Below are positions 8,201 through 34,289 of a DNA stretch of 39,692 nucleotides, piece by piece (the stretch's first letter is position 1; each line of letters opens with the position of its first letter). This DNA comes from Lachnospiraceae bacterium (GTDB lineage Bacteria > Bacillota > Clostridia > Lachnospirales > Lachnospiraceae). The position numbers and the translations under genes are program-made. Under the pieces are notes generated by a model. The model was given only the letters and a program-made list of their open reading frames with translations. It was not told the DNA's origin and made no database searches. Location: contig JAJQHQ010000107.1 in assembly GCA_021199655.1 (NCBI GenBank), forward strand, positions 1-39,692, read 5' to 3'.

Positions 8201-8221
8201 AACACAGAAATGGAGATCTAT

Positions 8222-17088: not shown

Positions 17089-17221
17089 TCTTGTACAGTC
17101 CGTTCCTTTCCCAGATATGGTATCTTACTGAGTCAAAATGTGTATAACATAATTTTTATAGTAATAAAAAGAAGAAACTTTGTACGATGCATTGTGCAGG
17201 CTGGCGGATAGATGGATGATT

Positions 17222-18196
17222 TTACAAAGTAGCTGTATGGGAATGGGACATTCGGTATTCCCGTGGCGTCATGCCATATTTTTCCTTAAAGATGCGGTAA
17301 AAATAACTGAAATTATTATATCCCACATTCATACAGATATCAGAGATCGAAAGCCTGGTCGTGTCAAGGAGAAAAGCTGCTTCCTGCAGTCTTTTTTCCT
17401 GAAGCAGCTCCGTATAGGTAGAGCCGGTGACATCTTTTATGAGACGGCTCAGCTGATACAGGTCATAATGCAGCCCGGATGCAAGGAAAGATAATTCTCC
17501 GTCCCTGTAATGGTCTTCGATATAGCGGAATACTTTCAGAATTATTTCTTCTTCCATGTGATCTTTCCCGATTTCCAGCTGATCAAGATAGTTCATCAAA
17601 TACAGAAACAGAAGCGCCATCGTTGTCTGATTTACCCGCTGGCTATACCGTCCGTCAAGCAAAGAACTGATCAGGTTTTCCATAAGATTCTGGATTGGTA
17701 AAAAGTCTGCCACCTTAAAATGCAGAAAGCTGACATCATGGCGCGTATTTCTGAGGCAATCCACCAGAAACTCGCGGATCAGGGAGGGCTCTGCGCCGAT
17801 CAGGTCCAGCACCAGACTGAAAAATTCCGGCAGGATGATCAGGTTCACTGCCACATCGTTTTCTCCGGCCGGGAAAATTTCCTGTGTCGCATCCTGGCTC
17901 ATGAAAAGCAGTTCCCCTGTATTTAGCAGGATTTCCGAACCATTTACAATATGACGTGTCTGCCCGGAGCACATATATACGACTTCGATATAATTATGGG
18001 TATGCTTTGGAAAATGGATAAAACGGGTATGAGGGCGCATCTGGATCAGCTGTCCGGCTGCAAGCAGTTTTTTGCAGTCGACCACCTGGGAATGATCCAG
18101 ATTATAGAGGGATTCATCCACCCGGGTACGCCCATCCAGTATTTCCTGTTCTTCTGAAGTTATGACGCTCAGCCTTTGTAAAAGTTCTGCATACAT
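17222..18196 (-). CDS. AraC-family transcriptional regulator (probable rhamnose regulator)
   Basis: The protein has about 324 residues when started at 18196, where GAGGG lies 9 nt upstream; an in-frame ATG at 18241 has no SD. An N-terminal cupin-like sensor (HTHNYIEVVYMCSG) precedes a C-terminal double helix-turn-helix of AraC type with the signature ISDICMNVGYNNFSYFYRIF and GMTPREYR. It is divergent from rhaB and shares a 220-bp intergenic region that holds a pair of 16-bp direct repeats abutting a promoter. By position it probably activates rhaB-isomerase-rhaD in response to L-rhamnose or a derivative, like RhaS/RhaR. Ligand identity is inferred from context only. Confidence 0.88.
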   Translation of the reverse strand: MYAELLQRLSVITSEEQEILDGRTRVDESLYNLDHSQVVDCKKLLAAGQLIQMRPHTRFIHFPKHTHNYIEVVYMCSGQTRHIVNGSEILLNTGELLFMSQDATQEIFPAGENDVAVNLIILPEFFSLVLDLIGAEPSLIREFLVDCLRNTRHDVSFLHFKVADFLPIQNLMENLISSLLDGRYSQRVNQTTMALLFLYLMNYLDQLEIGKDHMEEEIILKVFRYIEDHYRDGELSFLASGLHYDLYQLSRLIKDVTGSTYTELLQEKRLQEAAFLLDTTRLSISDICMNVGYNNFSYFYRIFKEKYGMTPREYRMSHSHTATL

Positions 18197-18301
18197 CTGC
18201 TTTTTCCCTCTGTCAAACTTTCTGTGCCGGTTCTCTGTCATCTTAAATCATAAACAGTTTACCGCTTCCCGTTCTGTTTTACAATCCCTGTTTCTCATTT
18301 C

Positions 18302-18367
18302 TTGCAAATCAGGTCATATTTTTTTGCGAATCATGTCATTGAAGTCATGCTGGATGGAAGTTATAGT
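18302..18367 (+). promoter_or_regulatory. rhaB promoter with AraC-type direct-repeat operator
   Basis: TTGCAAATCAGGTCAT (18302-18317) and TTGCGAATCATGTCAT (18324-18339) are direct repeats with two differences, 22 bp apart. The second abuts a promoter: TTGAAG (18339-18344), 17 bp, TATAGT (18362-18367). This matches the layout of AraC-family activators that contact RNA polymerase at the -35 element. A weaker related stretch (CTTGCAAG) lies at about 18383-18390. Confidence 0.65.
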
Positions 18368-18413
18368 TTTTATATCAAACTTCTTGCAAGACTTAAGAAA
18401 TGGAGGAAAAGCC

Positions 18414-19838
18414 ATGGTTCGATACTATCTTGCCGTTGATATCGGCGCTTCCAGCGGACGTCATATCCTCGCTGCAATTCGGGACGGTAAAATCGTGACC
18501 GAGGAGATTCACCGCTTCCCGAATGGGATGACGCAGCGCGGCGGCCATCTGTGCTGGGATGTCGGGCAGCTCTTTGAAGAAATCAAAGCAGGGATGAAAA
18601 AGTGCAAAGAGCTGGGAAAAATTCCCGTCAGCATGGGCATTGACACCTGGGCGGTGGATTTTGTACTGCTGGATGAAAAAAATCAGATGATCGGGGACGC
18701 GGTCGGCTATCGGGACAGCCGCACGGAAAATATGGACCAGGAAGTCTACAAAACGATTCCTGAGAAGGAACTCTACGCCAGAACCGGTATTCAGAAGCAG
18801 ATCTTTAATACGATTTATCAGCTGATGGCGGTTAAAAAACAACAGCCGGAAGATCTGGAAAGGGCAGCTTCCATGCTGATGGTCCCGGACTATCTGCATT
18901 TTCTGCTCACCGGGGAAAAATGCACGGAGTACACCAACGCAACGACCACGCAGCTTGTAGATCCTGTCACGAAGGACTGGGATTTTGAACTGATCGATCG
19001 CCTTGGGTATCCGCGAAAGATTTTTCGGAAAATTCTGCCTGCAGGCAGCGTTCTGGGGCATCTTACCTCTCAGATACAGGAAGAAGTCGGGTTTGACTGC
19101 CAGGTGGTGCTTCCCGGCACGCACGATACGGCTTCTGCGGTTCTCGCTGTCCCGTCAAACGATCTGTCATCCGTCTATATCAGCTCCGGGACATGGTCGC
19201 TGATGGGAATTGAGCGGATGGAAGCGGATTGTTCCGAAAAAAGCCGCGAATGTAACTTTACCAACGAGGGCGGTTATCATTACCGTTACCGCTACCTCAA
19301 GAATATCATGGGGCTGTGGATGATCCAGTCCCTGAAAAAAGAACTTTCAGATCAGTATTCCTTTGCCGAACTTTGCTCTCTTGCGGAAGCAAGCGAGATC
19401 AATTCCATTGTAAACTGCAATGACAGCCGTTTCCTCGCTCCGGCATCCATGATGGATGCGATCACGGAAGCCTTAAGGGATTCCGGGCAGGAGGAACCGA
19501 AATCCGCCGGAGACTTTGCAAGAGTCATTTACCGCAGCCTGGCCGTCTGCTACAGGGATACGGTAAACGAAATCGAAGCCCTGGCGGGAACTCCCTGTGA
19601 GAAGATCCATGTAGTTGGCGGCGGCGCCAATGCGGACTATCTGAACCGGCTCATAACAGAAACTACGGGAAAAACGGTTTTGGCCGGACCGACAGAGGCT
19701 ACCGCTATCGGGAACCTGACAGCGCAGATGCTTACTGCGGGAGAATGGCAGACGCTTCACGAGGCGAGAGCGTGCATTTATGATTCTTTCGAGGTAAAGA
19801 AATATACGAAAAACGGAGGTAAGGAACATGTTAGTTGA
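18414..19838 (+). CDS. rhaB: L-rhamnulokinase (RhaB)
   Basis: This 474-aa FGGY-family sugar kinase has the RhaB hallmarks. AVDIGASSGRH near the N-terminus is the first phosphate-binding motif, MGIDTWAVDFVLLD follows, then PGTHDTASAV, SSGTWSLMGIE, and VGGGANADYLNRL in the ATP domain. It phosphorylates L-rhamnulose to L-rhamnulose-1-phosphate. The start at 18414 has GGAGG 7 nt upstream; the open frame extends further 5' across the promoter but is not credible there. The 3' end overlaps the next start by 11 bp, so rhaB and the isomerase-like gene are translationally coupled. Confidence 0.95.
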   Translation: MVRYYLAVDIGASSGRHILAAIRDGKIVTEEIHRFPNGMTQRGGHLCWDVGQLFEEIKAGMKKCKELGKIPVSMGIDTWAVDFVLLDEKNQMIGDAVGYRDSRTENMDQEVYKTIPEKELYARTGIQKQIFNTIYQLMAVKKQQPEDLERAASMLMVPDYLHFLLTGEKCTEYTNATTTQLVDPVTKDWDFELIDRLGYPRKIFRKILPAGSVLGHLTSQIQEEVGFDCQVVLPGTHDTASAVLAVPSNDLSSVYISSGTWSLMGIERMEADCSEKSRECNFTNEGGYHYRYRYLKNIMGLWMIQSLKKELSDQYSFAELCSLAEASEINSIVNCNDSRFLAPASMMDAITEALRDSGQEEPKSAGDFARVIYRSLAVCYRDTVNEIEALAGTPCEKIHVVGGGANADYLNRLITETTGKTVLAGPTEATAIGNLTAQMLTAGEWQTLHEARACIYDSFEVKKYTKNGGKEHVS

Positions 19839-21267
19839 CACAAAAGCAAGGATTGGCGTTTTTTCGATTGCTTTGGGAGCCTATCTGCCCCAGTTTCCAT
19901 CGCTTGTGCCGGAGTTTCAGGCACAGTACGAGGCGTTTAAGCAGACAATCCCTGACACGGTAGAAATCGTGGACGGCGGTATGGTGACGACCAAGGAACA
20001 GTCTCAGGCGGCGGGAGATAAATTCCGGGCGGCGGATGTGGACCTCGTCTTTTTGCAGCTACTTACCTACGCCACTTCTTACAATATGCTGCCGGCGGTA
20101 AAGGATCTGGATGTCCCCGTGGTACTGGTAAACATCCAGAAACTGAAAGCACTGGACTATGACCACACAGACATCGCAGCCTGGCTCGGCGAGGGCTATG
20201 CCTGCGGCGCGGTCGGCGAGATGGTGGCTGACCTGGAACGATTCGGAAAGCGGCATGCGGTCATCACTGGCGTGGTGGAAGGCGGCGATGCTACCGTTCA
20301 GGCGGAGATCGAGGACTGGTGCCGGGCAGCGCAGACCAGGCGCAGATTCCGCGACACCAATATCGCACAGATCGGCCGCCCCTATCCGGGCATGATGGAT
20401 CTGTACATAGACGAGTCCAACCTTTACCGGCGGATGCATCTGTATACCAAGCAGTTTGACTGGGAGCGGATGTGGATCATCGCGGATGACATCACGGACG
20501 AGGAGGCAATCCGCGCCAAAGCGCAGGACATCCTTGATACCTTTGATATCGAGGGAACTGGAAACGCCCCCTCTTCTGATAGCCCTATTGAAAAGGTATG
20601 GGATATGGCGAGATACGTCGTAGCGTTCGAGCAGTGGGTAAAGGAAGAACAGATCGGCCTGATCGCCTCCCATTATGACGGACTGGCGACAGGAAAGGCA
20701 GGTGTGCTGGACAGTATGCTGATCCCGGCCTTCTCCATGCTCATCAAACAGGGGGTTGCCTGCGCCGTCGAGGGCGACATAAAAGTGGCCATGGCCATGA
20801 GCATTCTGAAGACGATTTCCGGTACCGGCCAGCTGGCGGAGATGTATTCCATTGATTTTAATGAAGATATCGCCATTATCGGACACAGCGGCTCCGGAGA
20901 TGCGGATATCTCTGACAGAAAGCCAACCATGAAGATCGTGAACGTGTTCCATGGCAAGACTGGCGGCGGCTACCTGACCCAGTTTTATCCTTACACCGGT
21001 CCGGTGACCTACCTGGCTATCACGCAGGATGGTGACGGCCATTTCAAATTCGTTGTGGCAGAAGGAATCAATGAGGAGGGCAAAATCCTCTCCTTTGGGG
21101 ATACCAACATGCGGACTCGCTTTACCTGCGGCGCAAGGGAATTTGTGACCCGCTGGAGCGAGTGCGGGCCGACCCATCACTTTGCGGCAGCGACCGGACG
21201 CCATATTGATACCATTTTGAAGGTGGCAAAAATCTTCAACGTGCCGGTGGATGTGGTTACACGGTGA
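19828..21267 (+). CDS. L-fucose/L-arabinose isomerase-family protein, probable rhamnose isomerase substitute
   Basis: This 479-aa protein has the fold pattern of the fucose/arabinose isomerase family, not of TIM-barrel RhaA. Likely metal ligands are Glu315 (AVEGD), a cluster at Asp343/Glu346/Asp347/His353 (SIDFNEDIAIIGHSG), and His450/His451 (GPTHHF). It sits between rhaB and rhaD, and no rhaA is in the window, so it may convert L-rhamnose to L-rhamnulose. The family also includes fucose isomerases and proteins of unknown specificity, so the substrate is an inference from context. Its ATG lies within the end of rhaB, with GGAGG in the rhaB coding sequence. Confidence 0.8.
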   Translation: MLVDTKARIGVFSIALGAYLPQFPSLVPEFQAQYEAFKQTIPDTVEIVDGGMVTTKEQSQAAGDKFRAADVDLVFLQLLTYATSYNMLPAVKDLDVPVVLVNIQKLKALDYDHTDIAAWLGEGYACGAVGEMVADLERFGKRHAVITGVVEGGDATVQAEIEDWCRAAQTRRRFRDTNIAQIGRPYPGMMDLYIDESNLYRRMHLYTKQFDWERMWIIADDITDEEAIRAKAQDILDTFDIEGTGNAPSSDSPIEKVWDMARYVVAFEQWVKEEQIGLIASHYDGLATGKAGVLDSMLIPAFSMLIKQGVACAVEGDIKVAMAMSILKTISGTGQLAEMYSIDFNEDIAIIGHSGSGDADISDRKPTMKIVNVFHGKTGGGYLTQFYPYTGPVTYLAITQDGDGHFKFVVAEGINEEGKILSFGDTNMRTRFTCGAREFVTRWSECGPTHHFAAATGRHIDTILKVAKIFNVPVDVVTR

Positions 21268-21269
21268 CT

Positions 21270-21279
21270 GAACAGTTAC
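21270..21279 (+). repeat. GAACAGTTAC motif, exact copy
   Basis: This exact 10-mer starts 2 nt after the isomerase stop, in the gap before rhaD. Other exact copies are at 4590-4599 (+), 249-258 (-) and 28191-28200 (-), all outside genes. Near-copies are at 191-200 and 1541-1550. Confidence 0.5.
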
Positions 21280-21393
21280 GAGAAGCAAAGCGCGGAGGAA
21301 TCAGCCGGGTTGATCAGATGCGTGTAGTTTGATATTTCTGCACATAATTCAGGCAATGAAAGAACACGATACACAGAAAGGACGGAAAATAAG

Positions 21394-22218
21394 ATGAAAG
21401 TTTTAGATTCAGCATTTATGAAGGGTTTTATGCGCATGGCGGATGATGGCTGGCAGCAGGGCTGGCACGAGCGCAACGGTGGCAACCTGACCTACCGCAT
21501 GAAGCCGGAGGAGGCAGAGGCGGTTCGGGACGATCTGTCTTTTGACGGCGAGTGGAAAGAAATCGGTACCAGTGTACCGGGACTGGCCGGTGAATTCTTT
21601 GTGGCTACCGGATCCGGGAAATATTTTCGCAATGTGATGAGCGCTCCGGAGGACTCCTGCGCCATCTGCGAGATTGACGGCAAAGGCGAACAGTACCGGG
21701 TGGTCTGGGGGCTGATAAACGGCGGACGCCCCACCAGCGAATTTCCGTCCCATCTGATGAATCATGAGGTCAAGAAAGCGGCCACCAATGGCGCACACCG
21801 GGTCATTTATCATGCGCATCCGGCAAATGTGATCGCACTGACCTTTGTACTTCCGCTGACCGACGAGGCGTTTACCCGTGAACTGTGGGAGATGGCGACC
21901 GAATGCCCGGTCGTGTTTCCGGACGGCATCGGTGTGGTGCCGTGGATGGTGCCGGGCGGACGGGATATCGCCGTAGCGACATCAGAGCTGATGAAACAGT
22001 ACGATGTGGCAATCTGGGCGCATCACGGAATGTTCTGCTCCGGGGAGGATTTTGACCTGACCTTCGGTCTGATGCATACCGTGGAGAAGTCTGCTGAAAT
22101 TCTGGTAAAGGTCTATTCCATGACCGGCGGGAAAAAGCGCCAGACCATCCAGCCGGATGAGTTCCGGGCGCTTGCGAAGGATTTCAAAGTGACGCTGCCG
22201 GAGAAGTTTCTTTATTGA
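21394..22218 (+). CDS. rhaD: L-rhamnulose-1-phosphate aldolase (RhaD)
   Basis: This 274-aa class II aldolase matches RhaD closely. Zinc ligands His140 and His142 (YHAHP) and His211 (WAHHG), and catalytic Glu116 (PTSEFPSH), fall one residue from the known E. coli positions (141, 143, 212, 117). It splits rhamnulose-1-phosphate to dihydroxyacetone phosphate and L-lactaldehyde. SD AAGGACGG precedes the ATG. A 126-bp gap with the GAACAGTTAC motif separates it from the isomerase gene. Its 3' end overlaps the convergent AraC-GH39 gene by 7 bp, with no terminator between them. Confidence 0.96.
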   Translation: MKVLDSAFMKGFMRMADDGWQQGWHERNGGNLTYRMKPEEAEAVRDDLSFDGEWKEIGTSVPGLAGEFFVATGSGKYFRNVMSAPEDSCAICEIDGKGEQYRVVWGLINGGRPTSEFPSHLMNHEVKKAATNGAHRVIYHAHPANVIALTFVLPLTDEAFTRELWEMATECPVVFPDGIGVVPWMVPGGRDIAVATSELMKQYDVAIWAHHGMFCSGEDFDLTFGLMHTVEKSAEILVKVYSMTGGKKRQTIQPDEFRALAKDFKVTLPEKFLY

Positions 22219-24782
22219 CGATCCTTTACCCGCCGGAGCATGATTAGCTTTACTTCGAGCATTTCCAGCATAACATCAAGTTTTAAAACACCATTCTTTG
22301 TTTCTGCCGTGTATTTGGTGATGGAGGGGCGTGAATGTCCCTCCAGATTATCAAGTTCATCCGCTTCCAGTTCTACCGCCCCCATAGAGACCCAGTGATC
22401 AAACGCACTGCCGGCTTTTCGGCCGATTGAGATTTCACGAATCGCGTAGCTGCCTTCCGGAAGGTCAGTCAGGCTTATGTCTGTGTCCATGGACTGTTCC
22501 GGAGAAAAAGGCGTATAGCGGTCGGTGAAGGTCATGTCAAAGCGCTCACCAAGTGCATACAGATGGGAAAAATGCCGGTAATTATACAATATAATCTGAA
22601 ATTCTTCACAGGAAGCATCTTGAGCTTCATCCCTGGAAGCTTTACCGGCTGCGCCCGGATGCATGATGCCCGAAATCTGACCAATATGCCCCTTCGTAGC
22701 GTACCAGCCGGGTCCCTGACCGATGCAGAGATTGCCCAGATGTCGCAGAAGCGTCAGAGCGTAAAAAGAGGCTTTGGGAATTCCGTTTTTGGTAAAGAGA
22801 CCGAGACCGCCAAAAAATAGCTCAGAAGGGATCGCAGATTCTCCCGTCCAGTCGGAAAGGGACCAGTAGCAGAAGCTATCGAGAGCATCCATATTTTCAA
22901 GAATTCCCTTGACCAGATAACAGGATTTAAAGCAGGTGTCATTCAGCCAGTCCTGATGGCTTGGGGTGTTGTTCCACTCGGTCAGATAGACCGGATATTT
23001 TTTGCTGCGTATTTTCCCGGAACGGCTGCGGCGGGTCAGATCATGACGCACCTGCTGTACAAAATCGGAGAGCCCGTCCGGACTTTCGCCAAGCGTCATG
23101 GAATTTGCAAAGCCAAACAGATCCATGGCTGCGTAGCTGTTTCTTTGCTGTACGGTATCGTAGTAGTGAAAGCTCAGAAAATCCGGCGCGCAGCCGTTTT
23201 TTTCGCACCAGTCCAGAAACGTGGTATACCAGTGATCTTCGCCAACGATATAGTAAGTGGAAGGGGCTCCAAGGCATAAGTGCGGGTCACATTTTTTTAC
23301 GCTGTTCCAGGTCGCACGGTAAAATTCATAAAAAGCTTCAGCCGAAGAAAAGCCAAACATATTGATCGGCGTGTCAGGTAAACTCCAGGGTGTAAAAAGC
23401 CAGGACCGGACGGCAGCAGATCCATAGCGTGCCAGAATATGATTGATGAAAGCCTCTACCAGTTCACACCATTCGCTTAGAGAACGTGGCTCGCTGGTGC
23501 AGTAATTGACAAACTTTTTCTGCGGGGTTTTGGCCATGGTTTCCGGCATGAAGCTGAATTCAATGACAGGCTTTAAACCCGTTTCGCAAAGAAAATCGAG
23601 CAGCTCATCTATAAAGAGAAAGCTGAAAGAAAGCTTTCCGTCTGTTCCGCGGCTGACAAGACGCATATCATCCGAGAGAATCCCGTGAAAACGGATATAT
23701 TCAAAACCAATCTCGCGCTGCATACGGCGTACCATTTCCTGAATATTGGAAAACAGAAGATCCCTGGCACTTCCGCCCGGCATAATTTTCCTCCAGTTGT
23801 GAGTAAGAGGAGTACCATCGGCGGATGCGCTGCACTGGATCGAAACAGAGGAAATCTGTTCCGGCAGATGCGGGGCGGCGGGGGAATCCAGATACTTTTT
23901 CAGCCCGGCTATGTAATCATGCTGCTCCGGCTCAGACATCGTATTTTCCGGTGCTTTGTTGACGCGGGTCTGACGGCGCCAGGCGCTGGGGAGCATCTGG
24001 TAACGTTTCTTAAAGGCCTGCGCGAACGAGTGGCTGTTCGGGAAACCGCTGTTCGCGGAAACCAGCTCAATATTGTGATCAGTCTGCGTTAATTCCGTGA
24101 CGGCATGATTGATACGGATCTCAGTGAGATAGTTGAGGAAGGTCATGCCATAATGCTGTTCAAAAAACCGGGACAGATAGGGCGCGGACAGATGAATTTC
24201 GTCAGCGAGACGTGTCAGCGTGAAATTTTCCATATAGTGCTCATTGATGATCCGGTTGATAGAGGACATCCGATCCGCATAGCGGTGAAGCTTCTGGTTC
24301 TGCGCATTGGTGTCGTCCAGACGAAAGTGATTATACAGCACATCCATCAGATCATAGGTGATCGACCAGTTCCGGAGCTCATATCCGGACTGCATTTCCG
24401 CATTGTTTTTTACGAGACGTGCGATCAGACGGCGGATGGCGTCAAAGGCAGGAAGCTGCCCCTGACGGGAGGAATCGCAGAAAAAGCTCGGCCGGAATGG
24501 GTGCGGCAGCGTATTTTCAAACAGGGTCTGGTCAAACTGTACGCTGATCAGCACACACTCAGAACCACGAAGAGAGTGCGGTGTGTGGCAGTCAAAAGCA
24601 ATCACATCATCTGCCTGCAAATGAGAAATCTGCTGCGCAGCTGTCGCTGTGCAGGAACCGCTTAAGATCAGTATAACCTCGAAGAAATCGTGGATGTGCG
24701 GCTCAATTTCCCCGATCTTCTGCAGGCTGCAGCGCATCGGGGCGTTTGCGGTAAAATTCAGGATTTCATATTTCTGGCGCAT
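22212..24782 (-). CDS. AraC regulator fused to a degenerate GH39-like domain
   Basis: Residue numbers here count from an in-frame ATG at 24854; the start at 24782 (Met25) is preferred because AGGAAGGA lies 8 nt upstream. A cupin-like sensor with IEPHIHDFFEVI is followed by an AraC HTH (about 205-300, ending RYQMLPSAWRR). A GH39/xylosidase-like TIM barrel with C-terminal beta domain then runs from about 335 to 880. The barrel keeps the nucleophile Glu626 in YLTEWN. The acid/base motif WNEPN of GH39 reads WSLPD (490-494), with Leu492 where the Glu should be. The domain therefore probably binds sugar without cleaving it. It is divergent from the ABC transporter operon and its likely regulator. 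Confidence 0.85.
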   Translation of the reverse strand: MRQKYEILNFTANAPMRCSLQKIGEIEPHIHDFFEVILILSGSCTATAAQQISHLQADDVIAFDCHTPHSLRGSECVLISVQFDQTLFENTLPHPFRPSFFCDSSRQGQLPAFDAIRRLIARLVKNNAEMQSGYELRNWSITYDLMDVLYNHFRLDDTNAQNQKLHRYADRMSSINRIINEHYMENFTLTRLADEIHLSAPYLSRFFEQHYGMTFLNYLTEIRINHAVTELTQTDHNIELVSANSGFPNSHSFAQAFKKRYQMLPSAWRRQTRVNKAPENTMSEPEQHDYIAGLKKYLDSPAAPHLPEQISSVSIQCSASADGTPLTHNWRKIMPGGSARDLLFSNIQEMVRRMQREIGFEYIRFHGILSDDMRLVSRGTDGKLSFSFLFIDELLDFLCETGLKPVIEFSFMPETMAKTPQKKFVNYCTSEPRSLSEWCELVEAFINHILARYGSAAVRSWLFTPWSLPDTPINMFGFSSAEAFYEFYRATWNSVKKCDPHLCLGAPSTYYIVGEDHWYTTFLDWCEKNGCAPDFLSFHYYDTVQQRNSYAAMDLFGFANSMTLGESPDGLSDFVQQVRHDLTRRSRSGKIRSKKYPVYLTEWNNTPSHQDWLNDTCFKSCYLVKGILENMDALDSFCYWSLSDWTGESAIPSELFFGGLGLFTKNGIPKASFYALTLLRHLGNLCIGQGPGWYATKGHIGQISGIMHPGAAGKASRDEAQDASCEEFQIILYNYRHFSHLYALGERFDMTFTDRYTPFSPEQSMDTDISLTDLPEGSYAIREISIGRKAGSAFDHWVSMGAVELEADELDNLEGHSRPSITKYTAETKNGVLKLDVMLEMLEVKLIMLRRVKDRQ

Positions 24783-24910
24783 ATGGAGGGTCCTTCCTGC
24801 CGTGTGACAACTGATCTGAAACTGTTTTGGTATCAGTTCAATACAGTGCTTCATACCTGTTGCAAAGCACGTATGAAAATGTATATTACACGGATATACT
24901 TTTTCCTTGA

Positions 24911-24939
24911 ATTATAGTCTAAACAGGATAAAAATACAA
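24911..24939 (-). promoter_or_regulatory. Promoter of the AraC-GH39 gene
   Basis: Read on the minus strand, TTGTAT (24939-24934) and a perfect TATAAT (24916-24911) are 17 bp apart. The start site would be near 24904, giving a leader of about 120 nt to the preferred ATG at 24782. The upstream ATG at 24854 lies in this leader. Confidence 0.65.
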
Positions 24940-24970
24940 GCTTTTCCAAACATGATTCGGGCGAAAAAAG

Positions 24971-25215
24971 ATAAAAATCAAAGGTTAAAAATAAAAGAAA
25001 GAGAAATATTTTATTTTTATTTGACACAGGTTTGAGATTTTCAAAAGACGAAATAAGCCCAAAAAGACAAAAACTTTGGGAAATATGAACAAAAATCAGA
25101 GTGAAAATTCGGGATAAATACACAAAATATCTATTTTTTAATCAAAAAATTCAAAATCAGCTCCATTGAACGGAGTTTTCATGAAAAAATTTTGGATTTT
25201 CATAAAAATCAAAGG
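24971..25215. promoter_or_regulatory. Candidate operator repeats in the divergent AraC-GH39/ABC region
   Basis: The 584-bp AT-rich gap between the divergent genes holds no gene. ATAAAAATCAAAGG occurs twice (24971-24984 and 25202-25215), a related ACAAAAATCAGAG lies at 25089-25101, and the second copy overlaps a palindrome, GATTTT-CATA-AAAATC (25195-25210). Such direct repeats could be half-sites for the AraC-GH39 protein. No convincing -10/-35 pair for the ABC operon was found. Confidence 0.4.
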
Positions 25216-25366
25216 AAAACTGAACAATCTCAGACCTGTGAAGAATCGTACGCTTTTCTTAAAATACAGATATTCAAAGCCGCTGTTCAGGATACAAAGC
25301 CTTCAGCCGGACAGATGGCAGAAAAAAGTGATTTATGAAATGCGTATGATCTTGTGAGGTGAGGAT

Positions 25367-26863
25367 ATGGCAGAGCCGATACTCGAAATGAAACAGATTA
25401 CCAAGTATTTTGGTACAACAGTCGCGCTGAAGAGCGTAGATTTTACCGTATATCCGGGGGAAGTGCGCGGGCTGATCGGTGAGAACGGATCCGGAAAGTC
25501 GACAATCTCGTCTATCGCGGCCGGGATGCAGAAAGCCAGCGGCGGTGAGATGTTTTTCCATGGGAAGTCCTGGGCGCCGGAATCCATGATCGACGCGCTG
25601 GGGCACGGCATTGGCATGATCGTGCAGGAGAGCGGCACGATTCAGGGTATCTCTGTGGCGGAGAACCTGTTTCTGGGTGAGACGAAGCAGTTTCAGAATG
25701 CTTTCGGGCTGGTGAATCGCAAACGTATGAATGAAGCCGCGGACGCTGCGCTCAACGCGATCGGAATTACAGATGTACGGGGTGCGATGCCGATGGCGGC
25801 AATTGATTTCCAGACGCGTAAGCTGGTCGAGATCGCGAAGGTCGTGATGAAGAATCCGGATATTCTGGTCGTTGATGAGACGACCACGGCTCTCTCGCAG
25901 GACGGCAGAAAGATTCTTTACGATGTGGTCAGGCAGTTTAAAGAAAATGGGAAATCCGTCATTTTTATCTCACATGATCTGGACGAGGTCATGGAGGTCT
26001 GCGATGAACTGACAGTATTAAGAGATGGCGTGATGGCCGCGACTCTCTCGAAAAAGGATTTTGACGCGGATGTGGTCAAGCAGTACATGGTCGGACGTGA
26101 GATACAGGGAGACTATTACCGCAGCGATTATGACACGCCGGTTTCGGATGAAGTGGTGCTGGAACTAAAAGATGGCTGTGCGGCCGATCTGAACCATCTG
26201 AACCTGCAGCTGCATAAAGGAGAAATTCTCGGCATCGGCGGCCTGTCGCACTGCGGGATGCATACGCTGGGAAAGGTACTTTTTGGGGCGGATGCACTGA
26301 AACAGGGAACCGTGATGGCGGGAGGCACACAGGTAAAGGATGAAAGCACGGCCATGAACCTGAGAATCGGCTACGTGAGCAAAGACCGTGATACGGAATC
26401 GCTGAACCTGAACGCGTCTATCGGTGACAATATCGCAATCGCCGGTCTGGACCAGTTTGCGGTAAACAGGCACCTGATCTTACGAAGCAAAGAGAAAGAA
26501 TATGTGAACCGGCAGATTGAGAACCTTTCCATAAAATGCTTTGACGGGGAGCAGGAGGTCAGCCAGCTTTCCGGCGGCAACAAACAGAAAGTCGTGTTCG
26601 GCAAATGGGTAGGACGCAACAGCGACATCCTGATCCTGGACTGTCCGACCAGAGGCGTGGATATCGGCGTTAAGCAGTTCATGTACCAGATGATGTACCG
26701 GATGCGGATGGAAGGAAAATCGATTCTGCTGATTTCTGAGGAACTGTCCGAACTGATCGGTATGAGTGACCGCCTGATCATCATGAAAGACGGTGCGATA
26801 TCCGGGGAATTCGCCCGGAGCCGTGACCTGACCGACAGCAAAGTCATCGATTACATGATATGA
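25367..26863 (+). CDS. Sugar ABC transporter ATP-binding protein (CUT2, RbsA/MglA type)
   Basis: This 498-aa protein has two tandem ABC domains. The first has Walker A GENGSGKST (38-46) and Walker B ILVVDETTTALS, but a weak signature (DFQTRKLVEIAK). The second has a degenerate P-loop (GIGGLSHCGMHTLG) but a proper LSGGNKQKV signature and DCPTRGVD. That complementary pattern is normal for RbsA/MglA/RhaT-type ATPases. It energises uptake of a pentose, hexose or deoxysugar with the two permeases and binding protein downstream. SD GGTGAGG lies 3 nt before the ATG. It is the first gene of the operon divergent from AraC-GH39. Rhamnose import is a guess from the neighbouring rha genes. Confidence 0.93.
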   Translation: MAEPILEMKQITKYFGTTVALKSVDFTVYPGEVRGLIGENGSGKSTISSIAAGMQKASGGEMFFHGKSWAPESMIDALGHGIGMIVQESGTIQGISVAENLFLGETKQFQNAFGLVNRKRMNEAADAALNAIGITDVRGAMPMAAIDFQTRKLVEIAKVVMKNPDILVVDETTTALSQDGRKILYDVVRQFKENGKSVIFISHDLDEVMEVCDELTVLRDGVMAATLSKKDFDADVVKQYMVGREIQGDYYRSDYDTPVSDEVVLELKDGCAADLNHLNLQLHKGEILGIGGLSHCGMHTLGKVLFGADALKQGTVMAGGTQVKDESTAMNLRIGYVSKDRDTESLNLNASIGDNIAIAGLDQFAVNRHLILRSKEKEYVNRQIENLSIKCFDGEQEVSQLSGGNKQKVVFGKWVGRNSDILILDCPTRGVDIGVKQFMYQMMYRMRMEGKSILLISEELSELIGMSDRLIIMKDGAISGEFARSRDLTDSKVIDYMI

Positions 26864-26878
26864 TGATACAAGGGACAA

Positions 26879-26919
26879 AAGGTCAGGAATGGAACGCTTG
26901 CGTTCCTATTCATGACCTT
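26879..26919 (+). other. Long imperfect hairpin between ABC ATPase and permease genes
   Basis: AAGGTCA pairs with TGACCTT, GAAT with ATTC and GGAACGC with GCGTTCC around a TT loop: about 18 bp with one mismatch and one bulge. No U-tract follows. Further pairings lie at 26929-26995 (AACAACAT with ATGTTGTT). The 221-bp gap 26864-27084 thus looks like a structured processing or stabilising region inside the operon. Confidence 0.6.
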
Positions 26920-27005
26920 GGGGACCGCAACAACATGAGGAAGTAGCCATTTGGGACAATATATTGGCCAAAATGAGCGGATTCCGAATGTTGTTAGGAT
27001 TTCGA

Positions 27006-27040
27006 GAGCACGAAGTGCGGAGAAATCCGTAGTATCATAT
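27006..27040. repeat. Intergenic repeat sharing AATCCGTAGTATCATAT, copy 2
   Basis: GAGCACGAAG (27006-27015) is followed by AATCCGTAGTATCATAT at 27024-27040. The 17-mer is identical to 10774-10790. It lies 45 bp before the permease start. Confidence 0.6.
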
Positions 27041-27084
27041 CTGTTTAGTGCTTGAATTATGATTCAAGTGAGGAGGAGATAGAA

Positions 27085-28077
27085 ATGAAACAGGAAAAAG
27101 CTTTGAAGGCACCTTCTCAGGCAAAGGTTCTGATGAAACGCAGGATTTTAAATCTGGTTCCGATCATCGGTCTGCTGGTATTGATCGCGGTGTATGTATT
27201 TGTCGGGTACTGGGAGGACATCCGCTTTGATAAAGGCATTCAGGCAATTATTAATTCCAGCGTGGTGTGCGCGGTCGTAGCGACCGGAGCAATTTTCATT
27301 TACACACTGGGTTCGTTTGATATCAGCCTGGGAGCTGCGACGCTGGTGAGCGCAATGATCGGTGCGATGGCTTACAACGCTACGGGATCCATTGTGGTAA
27401 TGATGCTGGTATGTATCCTGGTGGCGGTCGGCATCGAACTGATCAGCTCATTGCTGGCTGCGTTTCTGGATCTGCCGGTCTTTATCACGACCGTCGCCAT
27501 GATGTCCATCCTGAACGCATTTGCGCTGGTGCTCATACAGATCAACGGGACGGGCGATTCCATCAGCATCCCGTCAGAAGCGGTGGATCCGTTTGACAAC
27601 ATGGCGTTTAAGCTGGCGGTACTGATCCTGTATCTGATCTTCGCGGTGTTTATGTTCAACTATACGAAGATTGGCCGCTCACAGAAGTTCCTTGGCGGGA
27701 ATTCCCTGTGCGCAAAGCTGACCGGTATTTCAATGAAAAAAATGGCGATCGTCGCGTTTGTCCTCTGCGGTGTGGGGATCGGGCTCGGGGCAATCCTGAC
27801 GGTAACGTATGCGCCGACCGTTTCCAGAAATACGGCTTCCGGCGTCGGAATGAATGTGATTCTGGCCATTGTGTTTGGCGGAATGCCGGTGTCCGGCGGC
27901 GCGAAATCCAAAATCAGTGCGGCGGTCATCGGGGCCATCTCGATTTCCGTGTTGGATCAGATCATGTCCATCCTGCAGCTGGGTTCCGGAGTCGGGCAGA
28001 TGGTAAAAGCAGTGATTTTCCTGGCGGTGGTTGTACTGACATCACTTGGGTACCGTCAGAAAATGCTGGCAAGGTAA
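27085..28077 (+). CDS. Sugar ABC transporter permease (first)
   Basis: This 330-aa integral membrane protein of the BPD_transp_2 family (RbsC/XylH type) has roughly eight to ten hydrophobic segments. FIYTLGSFDISLGAATLVSAM is the family's conserved membrane signature, and VFGGMPVSGGAKSK corresponds to the ATPase-coupling loop region. The start at 27085 has AGGAGG 8 nt upstream; the frame stays open upstream to a TTG at 27052. It forms the channel, probably as a heterodimer with the second permease at 29539. It is separated from the ATPase gene by a structured gap. Confidence 0.9.
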   Translation: MKQEKALKAPSQAKVLMKRRILNLVPIIGLLVLIAVYVFVGYWEDIRFDKGIQAIINSSVVCAVVATGAIFIYTLGSFDISLGAATLVSAMIGAMAYNATGSIVVMMLVCILVAVGIELISSLLAAFLDLPVFITTVAMMSILNAFALVLIQINGTGDSISIPSEAVDPFDNMAFKLAVLILYLIFAVFMFNYTKIGRSQKFLGGNSLCAKLTGISMKKMAIVAFVLCGVGIGLGAILTVTYAPTVSRNTASGVGMNVILAIVFGGMPVSGGAKSKISAAVIGAISISVLDQIMSILQLGSGVGQMVKAVIFLAVVVLTSLGYRQKMLAR

Positions 28078-28268
28078 ATATAAACATTTGCTTCTGCAAA
28101 AAAGTATCCGGTCTGCCATTGGGATTGCCGGGGAAGGCTGTAAATGAATCCGGTTTCTGCGGCCTGACAGCCGTAAAACATACATATCCAGTAACTGTTC
28201 ATCTTCAGAACAAAGGCATGTGCGGCCGGTTGTCCTGAATCAGGTATTAACGAAAAGGAGAAAGAACC
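28078..28268. other. Leader of the substrate-binding protein gene
   Basis: This 191-bp gap holds a hairpin, GGCTGT (28136-28141) with ACAGCC (28167-28172), and the motif GTAACTGTTC (28191-28200), the reverse of GAACAGTTAC. An AAAAGGAGAAAG SD precedes the next ATG. No gene was recognised. Confidence 0.4.
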
Positions 28269-29447
28269 ATGAAAAATTTTAAGAAAGTTGCAGCAGTGGC
28301 TCTGTCGCTCAGCATGGCGTTTTCATTTGCACCTTCAGCAAGTGCGGCAAAGTCGACAAAGATTGGCGTACTGGTGTCGGATACGACTTCCGGCGAGGCG
28401 CTTGGATTCCGCTCGTATTATGAAGACTATATTGAAGAACAGTACGATGTCACCTTTATTTATTCGGATCAGCTGGAAGACGCGGCTGGTGAGAAGGACG
28501 CCATCGACTCTATGATCGCACAGAACTGCAAGGCTATCATTTCATTTTCATCCTTTGACCGCCCTGCCCAGATTGAGCAGTGCGAGGAGGAAGGCGTGTA
28601 CTACGCAGTCGCGACCGGTACTCTGACGGATGAGCAGTATGAGACTTACAAGGAATACGAATACTATGTCGGCGCTATCGGACCGGACAACGATACCGAG
28701 TTCCAGACCGGCTATGATATGGCAAAATATTATCTGGATCAGGGTATGACGAACTTTGGCATCTTCACCGGTGCGGTTCCGTATTACACGGAAATGCACA
28801 TTTACCGCGTGGCCGGAATGCTGACCGCGATGGTTGAGGCAGGCGGAGACGACGCGAATTACAATGGCGCAACCGACAAGGACTCCATTGTGGCTCAGAT
28901 CTACGCGGATGGCTGCGCAATCTCGACCGGTTCTATCGGCACCGTCAATCTGCTGAGCGTTGTGGAGGGCTACACCATGGATGACGCGTGGTATGCATCC
29001 TGTGAGGCGGCAGTAAACGCGGAAGGACTGGAGGCATTTCTCGCAGTCGGCAACGGCGCGGATTTCTTTGCGGCATCCAAGCCGGACAGCGTGAAGATCG
29101 CTACCGTGGATTCTTATGTGGATTCTCTGGGTGAGGCCATGAGTGCGGGCTCTGTTGATTATCTGGCAGGAAAATTCAATTCCAGCATTGGACCGATCTT
29201 TATCGCGGTGATGCGTGCAATCGACGGCAATCCGCTCCGCACGGACGAAGGATACGCGCTTGCGCTTGGCCAGGGATACTGGGTAGCGACCAGCTACGAA
29301 GACTTCCAGACCTATCAGAGCGGCGACAGTGTAGAGTCTCCGGCTTACACGAAAGACATCCTTGACCAGTATCTGGAAGCAGATTATGCGGCATTTGCGG
29401 AATTCGTAGGCGCCTACACTTACGATGATATTACAAATGTAGGGTAA
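28269..29447 (+). CDS. Sugar ABC transporter substrate-binding protein
   Basis: This 392-aa protein starts with a clear signal peptide: basic MKNFKK, a hydrophobic core, and ASA-A near residues 24-27. The mature part looks like a type 1 periplasmic binding protein (IGVLVSDTTSGEALGF; repeated alternation of strands and helices). There is no lipobox Cys, which is unusual for a Gram-positive binding protein, since these are normally lipid-anchored. It is rich in Tyr and acidic residues. It sits between the two permease genes, so it belongs to the same importer. The ligand is unknown; a rhamnose-like or small glycoside ligand fits the neighbourhood. A strong AAGGAG SD suggests high expression. 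Confidence 0.85.
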   Translation: MKNFKKVAAVALSLSMAFSFAPSASAAKSTKIGVLVSDTTSGEALGFRSYYEDYIEEQYDVTFIYSDQLEDAAGEKDAIDSMIAQNCKAIISFSSFDRPAQIEQCEEEGVYYAVATGTLTDEQYETYKEYEYYVGAIGPDNDTEFQTGYDMAKYYLDQGMTNFGIFTGAVPYYTEMHIYRVAGMLTAMVEAGGDDANYNGATDKDSIVAQIYADGCAISTGSIGTVNLLSVVEGYTMDDAWYASCEAAVNAEGLEAFLAVGNGADFFAASKPDSVKIATVDSYVDSLGEAMSAGSVDYLAGKFNSSIGPIFIAVMRAIDGNPLRTDEGYALALGQGYWVATSYEDFQTYQSGDSVESPAYTKDILDQYLEADYAAFAEFVGAYTYDDITNVG

Positions 29448-29538
29448 TACGATTCCATGTTTATGTTCCTCTTTATTATTTCCTTCTGCCGGTAATCCAT
29501 CCGGCAGAAGGTTTCACAGAAACAGCAGGTGGTTGGAT

Positions 29539-30519: not shown

Positions 30520-30530
30520 AGGAGGCATAA

Positions 30531-32279
30531 ATGGTAGATTTAAGGAAAGCCCCATTTTTTCTGGACAATTCGGATGTGATGTGGATAGAAGAGACGCTTT
30601 CTTCTATGACACTGGAGGAAAAGGCGGGGCAGGTGTTCTGCCCGATGGGATTTACCAGCGATGAAAATGTCCTGCGCCATCTGGTGTGTGACGTTGGCAT
30701 TGGCGGCCTGATGTACCGGGCTGATTCCGCTGCAAATATCCGGAAGACGCATGAGACGATCCAGAAGCTTGCGAGAATCCCGCTTCTGCTTGCTGCGAAT
30801 ACAGAGGCCGGGGGCGACGGTCTGGCCTTCGAAGGAACTTCATTCGGACAGCCGATGGCGGTGGCAGCGACGGATGATCCGGAAAATGCGTATCACATGG
30901 GCTATGTGGCGGCAAAAGAGGGCGCTGCGCTGGGACTGAACTGGAGCTTCGCGCCGATTGTCGATATTGACATGGAATTCCACAACCCGATCACGAATGT
31001 GCGCACCTTTGGCAGTGATCCGGACCGCGTCATTGCAAATGCTTCCCGGTATATGGATGGAGCGAAGGAGAATGGTGTGGCGGTTGCCATCAAGCATTTT
31101 CCGGGAGACGGCGTGGATGAGCGGGATCAACATATCCTGACCAGTGTGAATTCCCTGTCTGTGGAAGACTGGGATAAAAACTATGGAAAAGTTTATGCAG
31201 AACTGATCGCAAAAGGCGCACAGACCGTCATGGCGGGGCACATCGCGCAGCCCGCATACGTGGCAGCGCTCAAACCGGATGCCACTTATGAAGAAAAAAT
31301 GCTTCCGGCGAGCCTGAACCCGGTGCTTCTGACCGGATTGCTTCGGGGGAAGTTAGGCTTTAATGGCCTGATCTGTACGGATTCGACGCCAATGGTCGGC
31401 TTTACGACCGCGATGCCCAGAGAAAAGGCGATCCCATCAGCGATAGCAGCGGGCGCGGATATGATCTTGTTTAACAAGGATCTGGAAGAGGATTTTGGCT
31501 TCCTGATGGCCGGCCTGAAAAATGGCATCCTGACCGAGGCAAGGCTGGACGAGGCAGTCACACGCATTCTCGGAACAAAAGCCGCGCTGGGTCTGCATAA
31601 AAAGAAATCAGATGGTACTTTGGTGCCCGGCGAAGCGCGGCTGAGTGAGGTTGGCTGCGCGGAGCACAGAGCCTGGGCAAAGGAAGTGGCAGAGAAATCC
31701 ATCACACTCGTGCGGGATAAGCAGGACCTCCTGCCGATATCTCCGGCAAAATACAGGCGTGTGTATCTGAATGTGATTCAGAAAGACATGAGCCCGGAAA
31801 ATCCGGTCGTGGTGCGCTGGAGGGAACTGTTTGAAAAGGAAGGTTTTGAGGTTACCGTGCGTGACCGCCGGGTCGGCATTACGGTGCAGGATTTCATGAC
31901 CGATCAGCTATCCCCGGAAAAAGCTGCCCTGATGCATGAGATGTATCGGAGCGTAGGCGAGGCCAGGGAAGCCTACGATCTTTACGTATACATCTGCAAT
32001 ATGGAAAACGCGTCGAACAATACGACCCTGAGGCTGAACTGGAACGTTGCCTTTGGTCTGGGCGACGACGCGCCCTGGCTGGTGCAGGAGGTGCCGGTGA
32101 TGATGATCAGTACCGCGTATCCCTATCATCTGTTCGACGCGCCGATGGTGAAAACCTACATCAACGCCTACAGCACACGGCCGGATTTCTGCGAAGCTGT
32201 GATGGAGCGGATCATGGGGCGGGCCGAATTTACCGGGAAAAGTCCGGTGGATCCGTTTTGTGGGAAGGACTATATATAG
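30531..32279 (+). CDS. GH3 NagZ-like beta-N-acetylhexosaminidase/glycosidase
   Basis: This 582-aa protein has a single GH3 TIM barrel resembling NagZ plus a C-terminal alpha/beta domain. The NagZ-type loop KHFPGDG continues to RDQH, giving the Asp199-His201 acid/base dyad. The nucleophile is probably Asp284 in ICTDSTPM. There is no signal peptide, so its substrates are cytoplasmic, most likely imported by the ABC system encoded just before it. The Asp-His dyad favours N-acetylglucosaminides, but related enzymes also act on beta-glucosides, so specificity is open. AGAGGAGG precedes the ATG. It is the fifth gene of the operon. Confidence 0.88.
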   Translation: MVDLRKAPFFLDNSDVMWIEETLSSMTLEEKAGQVFCPMGFTSDENVLRHLVCDVGIGGLMYRADSAANIRKTHETIQKLARIPLLLAANTEAGGDGLAFEGTSFGQPMAVAATDDPENAYHMGYVAAKEGAALGLNWSFAPIVDIDMEFHNPITNVRTFGSDPDRVIANASRYMDGAKENGVAVAIKHFPGDGVDERDQHILTSVNSLSVEDWDKNYGKVYAELIAKGAQTVMAGHIAQPAYVAALKPDATYEEKMLPASLNPVLLTGLLRGKLGFNGLICTDSTPMVGFTTAMPREKAIPSAIAAGADMILFNKDLEEDFGFLMAGLKNGILTEARLDEAVTRILGTKAALGLHKKKSDGTLVPGEARLSEVGCAEHRAWAKEVAEKSITLVRDKQDLLPISPAKYRRVYLNVIQKDMSPENPVVVRWRELFEKEGFEVTVRDRRVGITVQDFMTDQLSPEKAALMHEMYRSVGEAREAYDLYVYICNMENASNNTTLRLNWNVAFGLGDDAPWLVQEVPVMMISTAYPYHLFDAPMVKTYINAYSTRPDFCEAVMERIMGRAEFTGKSPVDPFCGKDYI

Positions 32280-32368
32280 GAACCGATTAATGTCGTTTCC
32301 TGGAAAAAAACATGCTGTGTCAGAGAACATTTTTAAGGACTGAAACTGCAGCATCTGAAGCTGCGGAA

Positions 32369-33970
32369 ATGAGGTATATTTTGGATAATAAAAGCTGTGT
32401 ACGGAATAATGATGTCTTCTTAGAGAAAGCGAAAGCCCTGTTTCCAAAGCTTCGGAAGACGGAGGTGTTTCCGGTCGGGAATTCCAGTGAAAGCCTGAAA
32501 ACAGAAATCTTTTCCAAAACAGACGTTACCAGGCCGCTTGGAACAGGGGAAAGTCTTTTGCTTGATTTCGGTGCCCACCAGGTCGGCTATCTTACTTTGA
32601 AGCTGGGATATACGGGCAGCCACCCGGATGCGCCGGTTTGGCTGCGGGTGCGTTACGCTGAGCGGCTGCAGGAACTGAAAGAAGATGTGAATGCCTATCA
32701 CGGATGGATTTCCAAAGGATGGATTCAATCGGAAGAACTGCATGTTGATATCCTGCCGGCAGTCATAAAAATGCCGAGACGCTATGCGTTTCGGTACGTC
32801 CTGATAGAAGTGCTGGATGTCAGCAGCAAGTTCCAGCTGACGGTTGATGAGGTGTCCTGTACAGCGGTAAGCAGTGCGGAAGATGACCGGCTGCAGCCGT
32901 TTGACAACGGGTCGCCAGAGGACGCAGCACTGGACCGGATTGCCTGCCGCACCCTGCACGAGTGCATGCAGACAGTCTTTGAAGACGGCCCGAAGCGTGA
33001 CAGGCGTCTGTGGATCGGCGACCTTCGTCTGCAGGCTTTGGCCAATTATGAAACTTACCGGCAGAATGATATGGTAAAATCCTGCCTATACCTGTTTGCC
33101 GGATCCACGCTTGCTGACGGACGCGTGAGCGCATGTATCTTTTTAGAACCGCAGATCGAGGCGGACGATACGGCGATGTTTGATTATTCGCTGTTTTTCA
33201 TCGCGACGCTTCGGGATTATTATGCGGCGACGGGCGATCAGGAGACCGTGCGTGAACTGTATCCGACTGCACTGAAGCAGTGGCAGCTGGCACAGACGAA
33301 TTTTGACGAAGCCGGTGTGATTCGCGATTCGGATGTGATGGGCTGGTGTTTTGTTGACTGGGATCTGCATCTGAATAAACAGGCATCCGCGCAGGGAATT
33401 TATCTTTACTGTTCGCGGGCGCTTCTTGAACTGACCAGGGCACTTGAGGAAAATATCGGGCAGGAAAGCGAACAATGTGATCAGTCTGGTTGCCTGAAAT
33501 TAACATTGGAGAATTTGCAGCGACTTATAGATAATCTGGAAGCAGACCTGGAGAAAAAAACGAAAGCGGCACAGGCGTATTTTTACGATCGTACATCCGG
33601 CGTCATGGTAAGCGGAGTTTCGCGCCAGATTTCCTACGCAAGTCAGGCGTGGATGGTGCTTGGAGGCGCAGCGGATGCTGCGGTACTGGAAAATATAGAG
33701 CAGATTCCCGAGGCTCATAAAATGGTCACGCCGTATATGTATCACCATTATATTGAAGCACTTATATGTGCGGGAAAGAAGACGAAAGCGCTTGATCTGC
33801 TCCGAAACTACTGGGGCGGTATGGTGAATGAAGGCGCAGATACGTTCTGGGAGCTTTATAATCCGGAAAATCCGCAGGAATCCCCCTATGGCGGCAGCAT
33901 TGTAAACAGCTACTGCCACGCATGGAGCTGTGGCCCGGCATATTTCCTGAGGAAATATGCGCATGACTGA
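32369..33970 (+). CDS. GH78-like alpha-L-rhamnosidase family protein
   Basis: The protein resembles the alpha/alpha-six-barrel part of GH78 rhamnosidases with a preceding beta domain (LLDFGAHQVGYLTLKLGY). The signature DGPKRDRRLWIGD matches the GH78 acidic motif, with Asp where characterised enzymes usually have the Glu general acid. At about 533 residues it is much shorter than the typical 900 or more, so it may be a divergent subfamily. With rhaB, the isomerase gene and rhaD nearby, release of rhamnose from imported glycosides is an attractive role. Neither the ATG at 32369 nor the in-frame ATG at 32312 has a good SD. It ends the ABC transporter operon. Confidence 0.75.
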   Translation: MRYILDNKSCVRNNDVFLEKAKALFPKLRKTEVFPVGNSSESLKTEIFSKTDVTRPLGTGESLLLDFGAHQVGYLTLKLGYTGSHPDAPVWLRVRYAERLQELKEDVNAYHGWISKGWIQSEELHVDILPAVIKMPRRYAFRYVLIEVLDVSSKFQLTVDEVSCTAVSSAEDDRLQPFDNGSPEDAALDRIACRTLHECMQTVFEDGPKRDRRLWIGDLRLQALANYETYRQNDMVKSCLYLFAGSTLADGRVSACIFLEPQIEADDTAMFDYSLFFIATLRDYYAATGDQETVRELYPTALKQWQLAQTNFDEAGVIRDSDVMGWCFVDWDLHLNKQASAQGIYLYCSRALLELTRALEENIGQESEQCDQSGCLKLTLENLQRLIDNLEADLEKKTKAAQAYFYDRTSGVMVSGVSRQISYASQAWMVLGGAADAAVLENIEQIPEAHKMVTPYMYHHYIEALICAGKKTKALDLLRNYWGGMVNEGADTFWELYNPENPQESPYGGSIVNSYCHAWSCGPAYFLRKYAHD

Positions 33971-34289
33971 TCCTGCGGCTAAATGGAGAATACCTGAAGC
34001 AAGCAGGGATCACTTTATCGACTACCACATGGTCGGCAGAGAGATTGACATGTTTACGAATGTGAGAAGCCTCACTTTCCGCCTTTTTACGGGAAAAGAA
34101 GAGGCAGAAAACCACTGCAATCCACAATTCTGATCAGCATGAAGAGCATGACGGATTTGTTGGAAACATGAATATATTTCTGCGGTACGTAGCTTCCCCA
34201 GAAGCTCGATATTTGAGGTGATGATGGAACTGCTGCCGCCTGCTGAAAGTGTTTGGAATATCAGGAGCAGAAGATAAGATATCGCAAGA
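33971..34289. other. Gap with no convincing gene, possible IS remnant
   Basis: These 319 bp separate the GH78-like gene from rluA copy B. An ORF of 56 codons (33963-34133, MTDPAAKWRIPEAS...) overlaps the GH78-like stop but is not recognised. In another frame, near 33990-34040, EYLKQAGITLSTTTW faintly recalls an IS66-type transposase. No promoter or terminator with clear features is seen. Confidence 0.25.

Follow-up and report, generated by a model that had tools for sequence, protein, structure and literature searches.

What does a glycosidase domain do on a transcription regulator when one of its catalytic glutamates is missing? The question is raised by contig JAJQHQ010000107.1 of a Lachnospiraceae bacterium (assembly GCA_021199655.1), whose whole analyzed stretch of 39,692 nucleotides is called the window here. 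It encodes an AraC-family regulator fused to a domain of glycoside hydrolase (GH) family 39, which the original prediction read as a glycosidase repurposed as a ligand sensor. Our analysis supported that reading in part. We consider it fairly probable that this is a pseudo-glycosidase effector (sensor) domain on an AraC-family regulator of a rhamnoside-uptake operon, in which the acid/base residue was lost, probably so that the domain can sense sugar without cutting it. The observations behind this are the sequence, the predicted fold, the clade-wide loss, the retention of the nucleophile, a conserved divergent operon, and repeated boxes. The gene and its parts are as follows, with residues numbered in an 880-aa frame.

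22212..24782, minus strand: AraC cupin–helix-turn-helix (HTH)–GH39 regulator gene, 856 aa from the conserved start
24414..24704, minus strand: AraC-type cupin PF02311, residues 51-147, a second candidate sensor
23970..24209, minus strand: AraC HTH, PF12833 HTH_18, residues 216-295
22731..23840, minus strand: GH39 domain, PF01229 match, residues 339-708
23490..23492, minus strand: Glu455, a possible relocated acid/base or new ligand contact
23373..23387, minus strand: acid/base motif, WSLPD replacing WNEPN, residues 490-494, with Leu492 at 23379-23381
22971..22985, minus strand: nucleophile motif LTEWN, residues 624-628, with Glu626 at 22977-22979

The Pfam matches agreed with the predicted fusion. 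The HTH is of the AraC/XylS type (PF12833, 81.5 bits; PF00165, 51.6 bits), and the GH39 match scored 216.5 bits against a cut-off of 26. The fold match extends past residue 708 to the C-terminus, and the GH39 fold is complete, with the TIM barrel and the C-terminal part. The regulator also has an AraC N-terminal cupin (26.9 bits, cut-off 21.1), which was absent from the earlier description; an N-terminal cupin or arm is not present in every AraC/XylS member. An upstream ATG at 24854 gives a longer open reading frame (ORF) of 880 aa (22212-24854, minus strand). Since 17 of the 18 aligned relatives begin at residue 25 (MRQ.YEI region) and P0030 alone has an upstream extension, the real start is probably 24782. 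This is the end that had been predicted, while the residue numbers given with it (490-494 and 626) belong to the 880-aa frame; in the 856-aa form the two motifs start at 466 (WSLPD) and 600 (LTEWN).

In the HMMER alignment to Geobacillus XynB1 (2bs9), WSLPD aligned with WNEPN and LTEWN with ITEYN. Leu492 lies at the acid/base Glu of 2bs9, and thus the acid/base residue of a GH39 enzyme is missing; the Asn preceding it is likewise replaced (Ser491). Glu626 is present in a TE[WYF]N nucleophile motif. Both motif readings of the original prediction, a lost acid/base Glu and an intact nucleophile, were therefore borne out. A sequencing error was rejected because WSLPD recurs in other assemblies (P0002-P0005; L003/L033, L032, L034, and L035), some P and L entries being the same contigs and L003 and L033 apparently one locus. 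A second GH39 protein supplying catalysis from elsewhere in the genome was also rejected, as a single PF01229 search of the genome matched the regulator gene alone. In L035, an in-frame stop (11813-11815) follows right after the nucleophile Glu of the Leu-type (L-type) regulator, which was read as two pieces.

The acid/base loss is no private mutation of the window protein. The best 120 of 398 hits from a protein search were aligned together with it, and in these 121 rows the acid/base residue was Gln in 109, Leu in nine, and Thr, Ala, and Glu in one each. The usual replacement among relatives is Gln, not Leu, which the original prediction had not said. The nine Leu types comprised five WSLPD (window included) and four WHLPD. 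At the nucleophile, 119 rows had Glu and two had Ala. A wider set, drawn from 187 loci and with the window gene included, held 166 different ORFs that matched a GH39 profile, after two of 168 ORFs were removed as identical. The HTH was in the same ORF in 108 of the 166. Their acid/base position was Glu in 48, Gln in 29, Leu in six, another residue in 17, and unreadable in eight, and their nucleophile was Glu in 98, another residue in five, and unreadable in five. Both glutamates were present in all 45 full-length GH39 ORFs without an HTH (470-560 aa). Among the 99 fusions readable at both sites (window included), 46 kept both, 49 lost the acid/base alone, one lost the nucleophile alone, and three lost both; for a deep group of fusions with scrambled motifs, the reading of the acid/base column is uncertain. 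A survey of both positions in AraC-GH39 fusions had been proposed as a check. When each 55% cluster was represented by one row under a stricter motif (n = 42), the acid/base alone was lost in 21 clusters and the nucleophile alone in one, while 17 kept both and three lost both (sign test p = 1.1e-5, for clusters that are not fully independent and a sample drawn by similarity to the window protein and PF01229). Four loci (L087, L097, L102, and L176) carry tandem AraC-GH39 fusion ORFs (two or more) with a scrambled acid/base and a mostly retained TEWN-like nucleophile motif.

The order of the loss was read from a tree of 112 rows with the motif columns excluded. Rows with fewer than 430 filled columns, L001 (the window's duplicate), L014, and two out of every three HTH-less ORFs were omitted. 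The window protein and three further WSLPD rows formed one clade (100), nested in a 31-row Q/L clade (SH-aLRT 98) with 24 Gln (Q) types and three WREPD types. Outward from this clade came WNEPD (97) and then WNEPV (94) fusions, and beyond them an unresolved node that joins WNEPS and WNEPG fusions with a single WNEAE row and a single WNLPD row; the Leu of the latter (L067) is a separate one, outside the 31-row clade. Because the Q/L clade is nested within WNEPD, WNEPV, and WNEPS fusions, Glu was most likely ancestral, with Gln next and Leu later. The three WREPD rows appear to have gone back to Glu. Glu versus not-Glu needed 10 changes on the tree, at least seven of them forced by well supported branches, in a count made by a quick method with long branches and some Glu-scored rows whose motif is otherwise scrambled.

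The rest of the sugar pocket was compared with the conserved GH39 positions in the available text of PMC7242879, transferred to 2bs9 by small numbering offsets and then to the window protein by alignment. His61, Phe118, Asn161, Glu162, Phe168, His228, Tyr230, Glu279, Tyr284, Trp317, Phe323, Glu325, and Phe337 correspond, in order, to His390, Val449, Ser491, Leu492, Phe500, His563, Tyr565, Glu626, Pro631 (taken from the motif, not from the alignment-table column), Trp664, Thr670, Glu672, and Leu684. Seven of these 13 published positions are kept: His390, Phe500, His563, Tyr565, Glu626, Trp664, and Glu672. Glu626, Tyr565, Trp664, and Glu672 are kept in 24/24 Q-type and 4/4 L-type rows.

The neighborhood points to sugar uptake.

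25367..26863, plus strand: ABC sugar transporter ATPase, divergent from the regulator
27052-28077, plus strand: permease of the divergent operon
28269-29447, plus strand: putative solute-binding protein (sub-cut-off Pfam hit only)
29533-30519, plus strand: second permease of the divergent operon
30531..32279, plus strand: GH3 enzyme
32312..33970, plus strand: GH78-type alpha-L-rhamnosidase-like enzyme (PF21104, PF17389)
18162..22218, plus strand: rhamnulokinase, isomerase-like protein, and rhamnulose-1-phosphate aldolase (rhamnose catabolism), convergent with the regulator

These ABC importer, GH3, and GH78-type genes are the divergent ABC/GH operon that had been predicted. Among related loci with 1.5 kb or more upstream, a divergent ABC ATPase homolog lay within 1 kb in 5/5 L-type (L003/L033 probably one locus), 21/26 Q-type, 3/3 WREPD, 6/6 non-Paenibacillus Glu-type (E-type), and 3/16 remaining loci. 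Thus, the ABC partnership exists with and without the catalytic residue. It also bears on the possibility that the GH39 domain has a protein, a nucleotide, or a cell-wall glycan as its partner and not an oligosaccharide brought in by the importer. Staphylococcus aureus AryK, a distant relative of similar architecture, affects virulence and central metabolism genes (available text of PMC3922988), which speaks for such a partner. With the divergent importer ATPase in 35 of the 40 L-, Q-, WREPD-, and non-Paenibacillus E-type loci, we consider this very unlikely. Homologs of rhamnulokinase and rhamnulose-1-phosphate aldolase were also found in L041, L059, and L062, the last additionally with L-rhamnose isomerase. 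Together with the window's own rhamnose genes, they make a rhamnose-containing oligosaccharide the likeliest ligand.

The region between the regulator and the ABC operon contains repeated boxes.

24971..24984, minus strand: candidate operator copy 1, CCTTTGATTTTTAT
25202..25215, minus strand: candidate operator copy 2, 231 bp from copy 1
24911..24939, minus strand: candidate regulator promoter TTGTAT-17-TATAAT

The 3.98 Mb assembly contains the exact 14-mer CCTTTGATTTTTAT just twice, each time in this divergent intergenic region. The idea that the same boxes precede rhaB was rejected, since the exact 14-mer is not present there. The sequence CCTTTGATTTTT occurs twice in the window's intergenic region and twice in that of L033, and L034 has two copies within one mismatch. 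The spacing is 231 bp in the window and 230 bp in L033 and (from positions) L034. At 10.5 bp per turn, such a distance makes about 22 turns, and thus AraC-like looping is possible. With at most one mismatch, CCTTTGATTTTT was found in 9 of 25 non-L intergenic regions, against a mean of 0.65 and a maximum of 3 in 200 shuffles; eight other non-L regions, several of them also with the box, had been left out as judged near-duplicates. No 12-mer from the window's intergenic region was present in more of the 25 other regions than this one, which shared first place. All 19 box sites are on the regulator's strand. The boxes are a candidate operator of the regulator. The TATAAT of the candidate promoter is identical in 5/5 aligned loci. 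A promoter/terminator consensus scan gave no more hits than in shuffles, and the TTGTAT-17-TATAAT candidate was not among them.

Taken together, an AraC-family regulator probably acquired and kept a GH39 glycosidase fold as its effector domain, and the ancestral fusion probably had both catalytic glutamates. With the changes from Glu to Gln to Leu, the domain would hold a rhamnose- or glucose-containing oligosaccharide without cleaving it. Some ligand would enter via the divergent ABC importer and sit in the old pocket, among the seven kept residues, and movement of the GH39 domain would pass through the linker to the HTH. The regulator, an AraC-family transcription regulator and probably an activator, would then switch the ABC-GH3-GH78 operon from its two boxes, which lie 231 bp apart, and might do so by opening a DNA loop, as in the regulation by Escherichia coli AraC. 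Here ligand binding, the identity of the ligand, and the direction of control are steps that we infer.

Several observations weigh against a sensor role, including those on the cupin and on Glu455 below. The divergent ABC gene is absent within 1 kb in 5 of the 26 Q-type loci, and Paenibacillus-type fusions occur without it (1/20, a weak hit). L032 and L035 carry one box copy, not two, the box (at most one mismatch) is absent from 16 of the 25 non-L regions, and with up to two mismatches allowed, 99 or all of 100 shuffles were beaten in only 6 of 39 regions. Nucleophile-less fusions exist (2 of the 121 rows formed by the window protein and the best 120 of 398 hits, and 4/99). Three WREPD proteins and one WNEPD protein within the clade carry Glu at the acid/base position. 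Six of the 13 published pocket positions are changed in the window protein. In the Q-type relatives His390 is replaced in 24/24, and His563 is kept in 7/24 and changed in 17/24; judged from the alignment, the pocket is remodeled in these proteins, and the sugar bound may differ between subclades.

Mean identity to the window protein was 0.94 for the cupin versus 0.85 for the GH39 barrel in the L clade (two proteins). This better conservation, the presence of the PF02311 cupin, and the scrambled acid/base motifs in the deep group fit a different explanation, that the cupin is the ligand sensor, as in RhaS and AraC, and the GH39 domain a structural or dimerization appendage drifting without catalysis. 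The available text of PMC7242879 adds that the GH39 C-terminal extension promotes oligomerization in some enzymes. Outside the L clade, however, the barrel was at least as conserved as the cupin in three sets: 0.56 versus 0.54 in the P0006-P0111 representatives (16-17 rows), 0.49 versus 0.48 in 20 loci (15 Q-type, three WREPD, and two WNEPD), and 0.36 versus 0.22 in 13 distant rows (Cohnella, Natronobacillus, L067, and ten Paenibacillus-type). The asymmetric loss, 21 clusters versus one, and the four pocket residues kept in every Q- and L-type row also speak against drift, and we regard this explanation as unlikely.

Position 455 is Glu in 28/28 Q/L-type fusions (window included) and 3/3 WREPD proteins, and Pro in 43/45 GH39 enzymes and 6/7 of the nearest E-type fusions. 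Glu455 was therefore gained close to the acid/base loss, and it could be a relocated acid, for which it is the main candidate. The GH39 domain might then still be an enzyme, with the acid/base relocated to Glu455/Asp494 or unneeded, that is, a trigger enzyme cutting or transferring its own inducer. The Asp at position 494 in 22/28 Q/L rows and the retained nucleophile would suit this role, and plant myrosinases have Gln at the acid/base position. But the Leu of WSLPD (5) and WHLPD (4) does not suit any myrosinase-like role, the Asn preceding this position is gone as well, and in the E-type fusion L172 Glu455 coexists with the acid/base Glu. We consider a remaining enzyme improbable.

Survival of the nucleophile when the acid/base goes (21 clusters versus one) would be explained by a covalent sugar latch, in which Glu626 attacks a glycoside and the unhydrolyzable glycosyl-enzyme locks the regulator in its active state. 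BlaR1, locked by beta-lactam, is an analog. The structure 2bfg, of the same fold, has a covalently bound xyloside according to its entry title, and it is the E160A mutant (available text of PMC7242879). Without acid help, the reaction of a natural sugar leaving group is expected to be very slow, and the few fusions without the nucleophile mentioned above also count against a latch, which we regard as doubtful at best.

Other features were observed around these genes. The isomerase-like gene (19828-21267, plus strand) matched no L-rhamnose isomerase model; its two matches, L-arabinose and sulfoquinovose isomerases, were both below cut-off, and a stretch of L063 is 84% identical to it. A Clostridiales-1 RNA (RF01699, 123.3 bits, gathering 48) lies at 26864-27037 (plus strand), between the ABC ATPase and the first permease. 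An Rfam scan of window positions 17000-35000 found nothing besides this RNA inside the ABC operon, and none was found at the gathering threshold in seven related loci. Beside the ABC-GH3 genes of L062 are a beta-phosphoglucomutase-like gene and a gene in which a GGDEF diguanylate cyclase is joined to a LacI-type sugar-binding domain (574-2520, 2471-3112). At window positions 8210-10750 (plus strand), a GH3 protein has its C-terminal domain ahead of its N-terminal domain, an order known for some GH3 enzymes.

The GH39 beta-xylosidases, Geobacillus XynB1 (2bs9/2bfg) and Thermoanaerobacterium XynB (1px8), have the acid/base Glu and preceding Asn that are replaced in the regulator, and they lack its fused AraC part. 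Intact-WNEP AraC-GH39 fusions (Paenibacillus, Cohnella, Natronobacillus, and others) share its architecture but keep both catalytic glutamates. Those of Cohnella, Natronobacillus, and two Lachnospiraceae metagenome-assembled genomes likewise have a divergent ABC-GH3 operon, in a neighborhood comparison for which the motif labels of L033, L061, L064, and L099 were assigned by hand. The Paenibacillus type has another neighborhood; in L075 a major facilitator superfamily transporter and a GH3 come next. E. coli RhaS/RhaR and AraC resemble the regulator in cupin and HTH, and rhamnose genes lie near it too; they are not known to have a GH domain. It scored 53.1 bits with the RhaS model NF010028 (cut-off 288) and reached none of the NCBIfam RhaS/RhaR/AraC cut-offs.

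AryK (NF047455) has an AraC HTH and a GH39-derived C-terminus, as in the regulator, which unlike AryK lies in a sugar operon. The AryK model matched window protein residues 52-434 with 146.7 bits, below the cut-off of 850, and thus the regulator is not an AryK equivalog. Since L129 and L134 matched the AryK model across almost the entire length of the model (503 and 315 bits) and were also PF01229-positive, AryK and the window protein seem to be built alike, each with a GH39 domain that has decayed or been repurposed. The word "glycosyl" did not occur in the main text of two AryK/Rsp papers searched for it.

AraC-GH39 fusions are already mentioned in print: the available text of PMC8543862 (XylP81) describes an AraC-like domain at the N-terminus of some GH39 xylosidases. 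It treats these AraC-annotated relatives as enzymes, and no sensor role or acid/base loss was found there. A fosmid study guessed that an AraC-annotated GH39 gene was a possible source of weak xylosidase activity (available text of PMC4730625). No account of AraC-GH39 fusions as regulators with a lost acid/base was found in the literature searched, which left most subscription papers outside.

Many GH39 annotations on AraC fusions are thus probably not active xylosidases, and a glycosidase origin is suggested for the C-terminal half of AryK-type regulators. The family apparently preserves an enzyme turned sensor in a traceable form, with intact, Gln-, and Leu-type fusions in the same operon context as intermediate steps.

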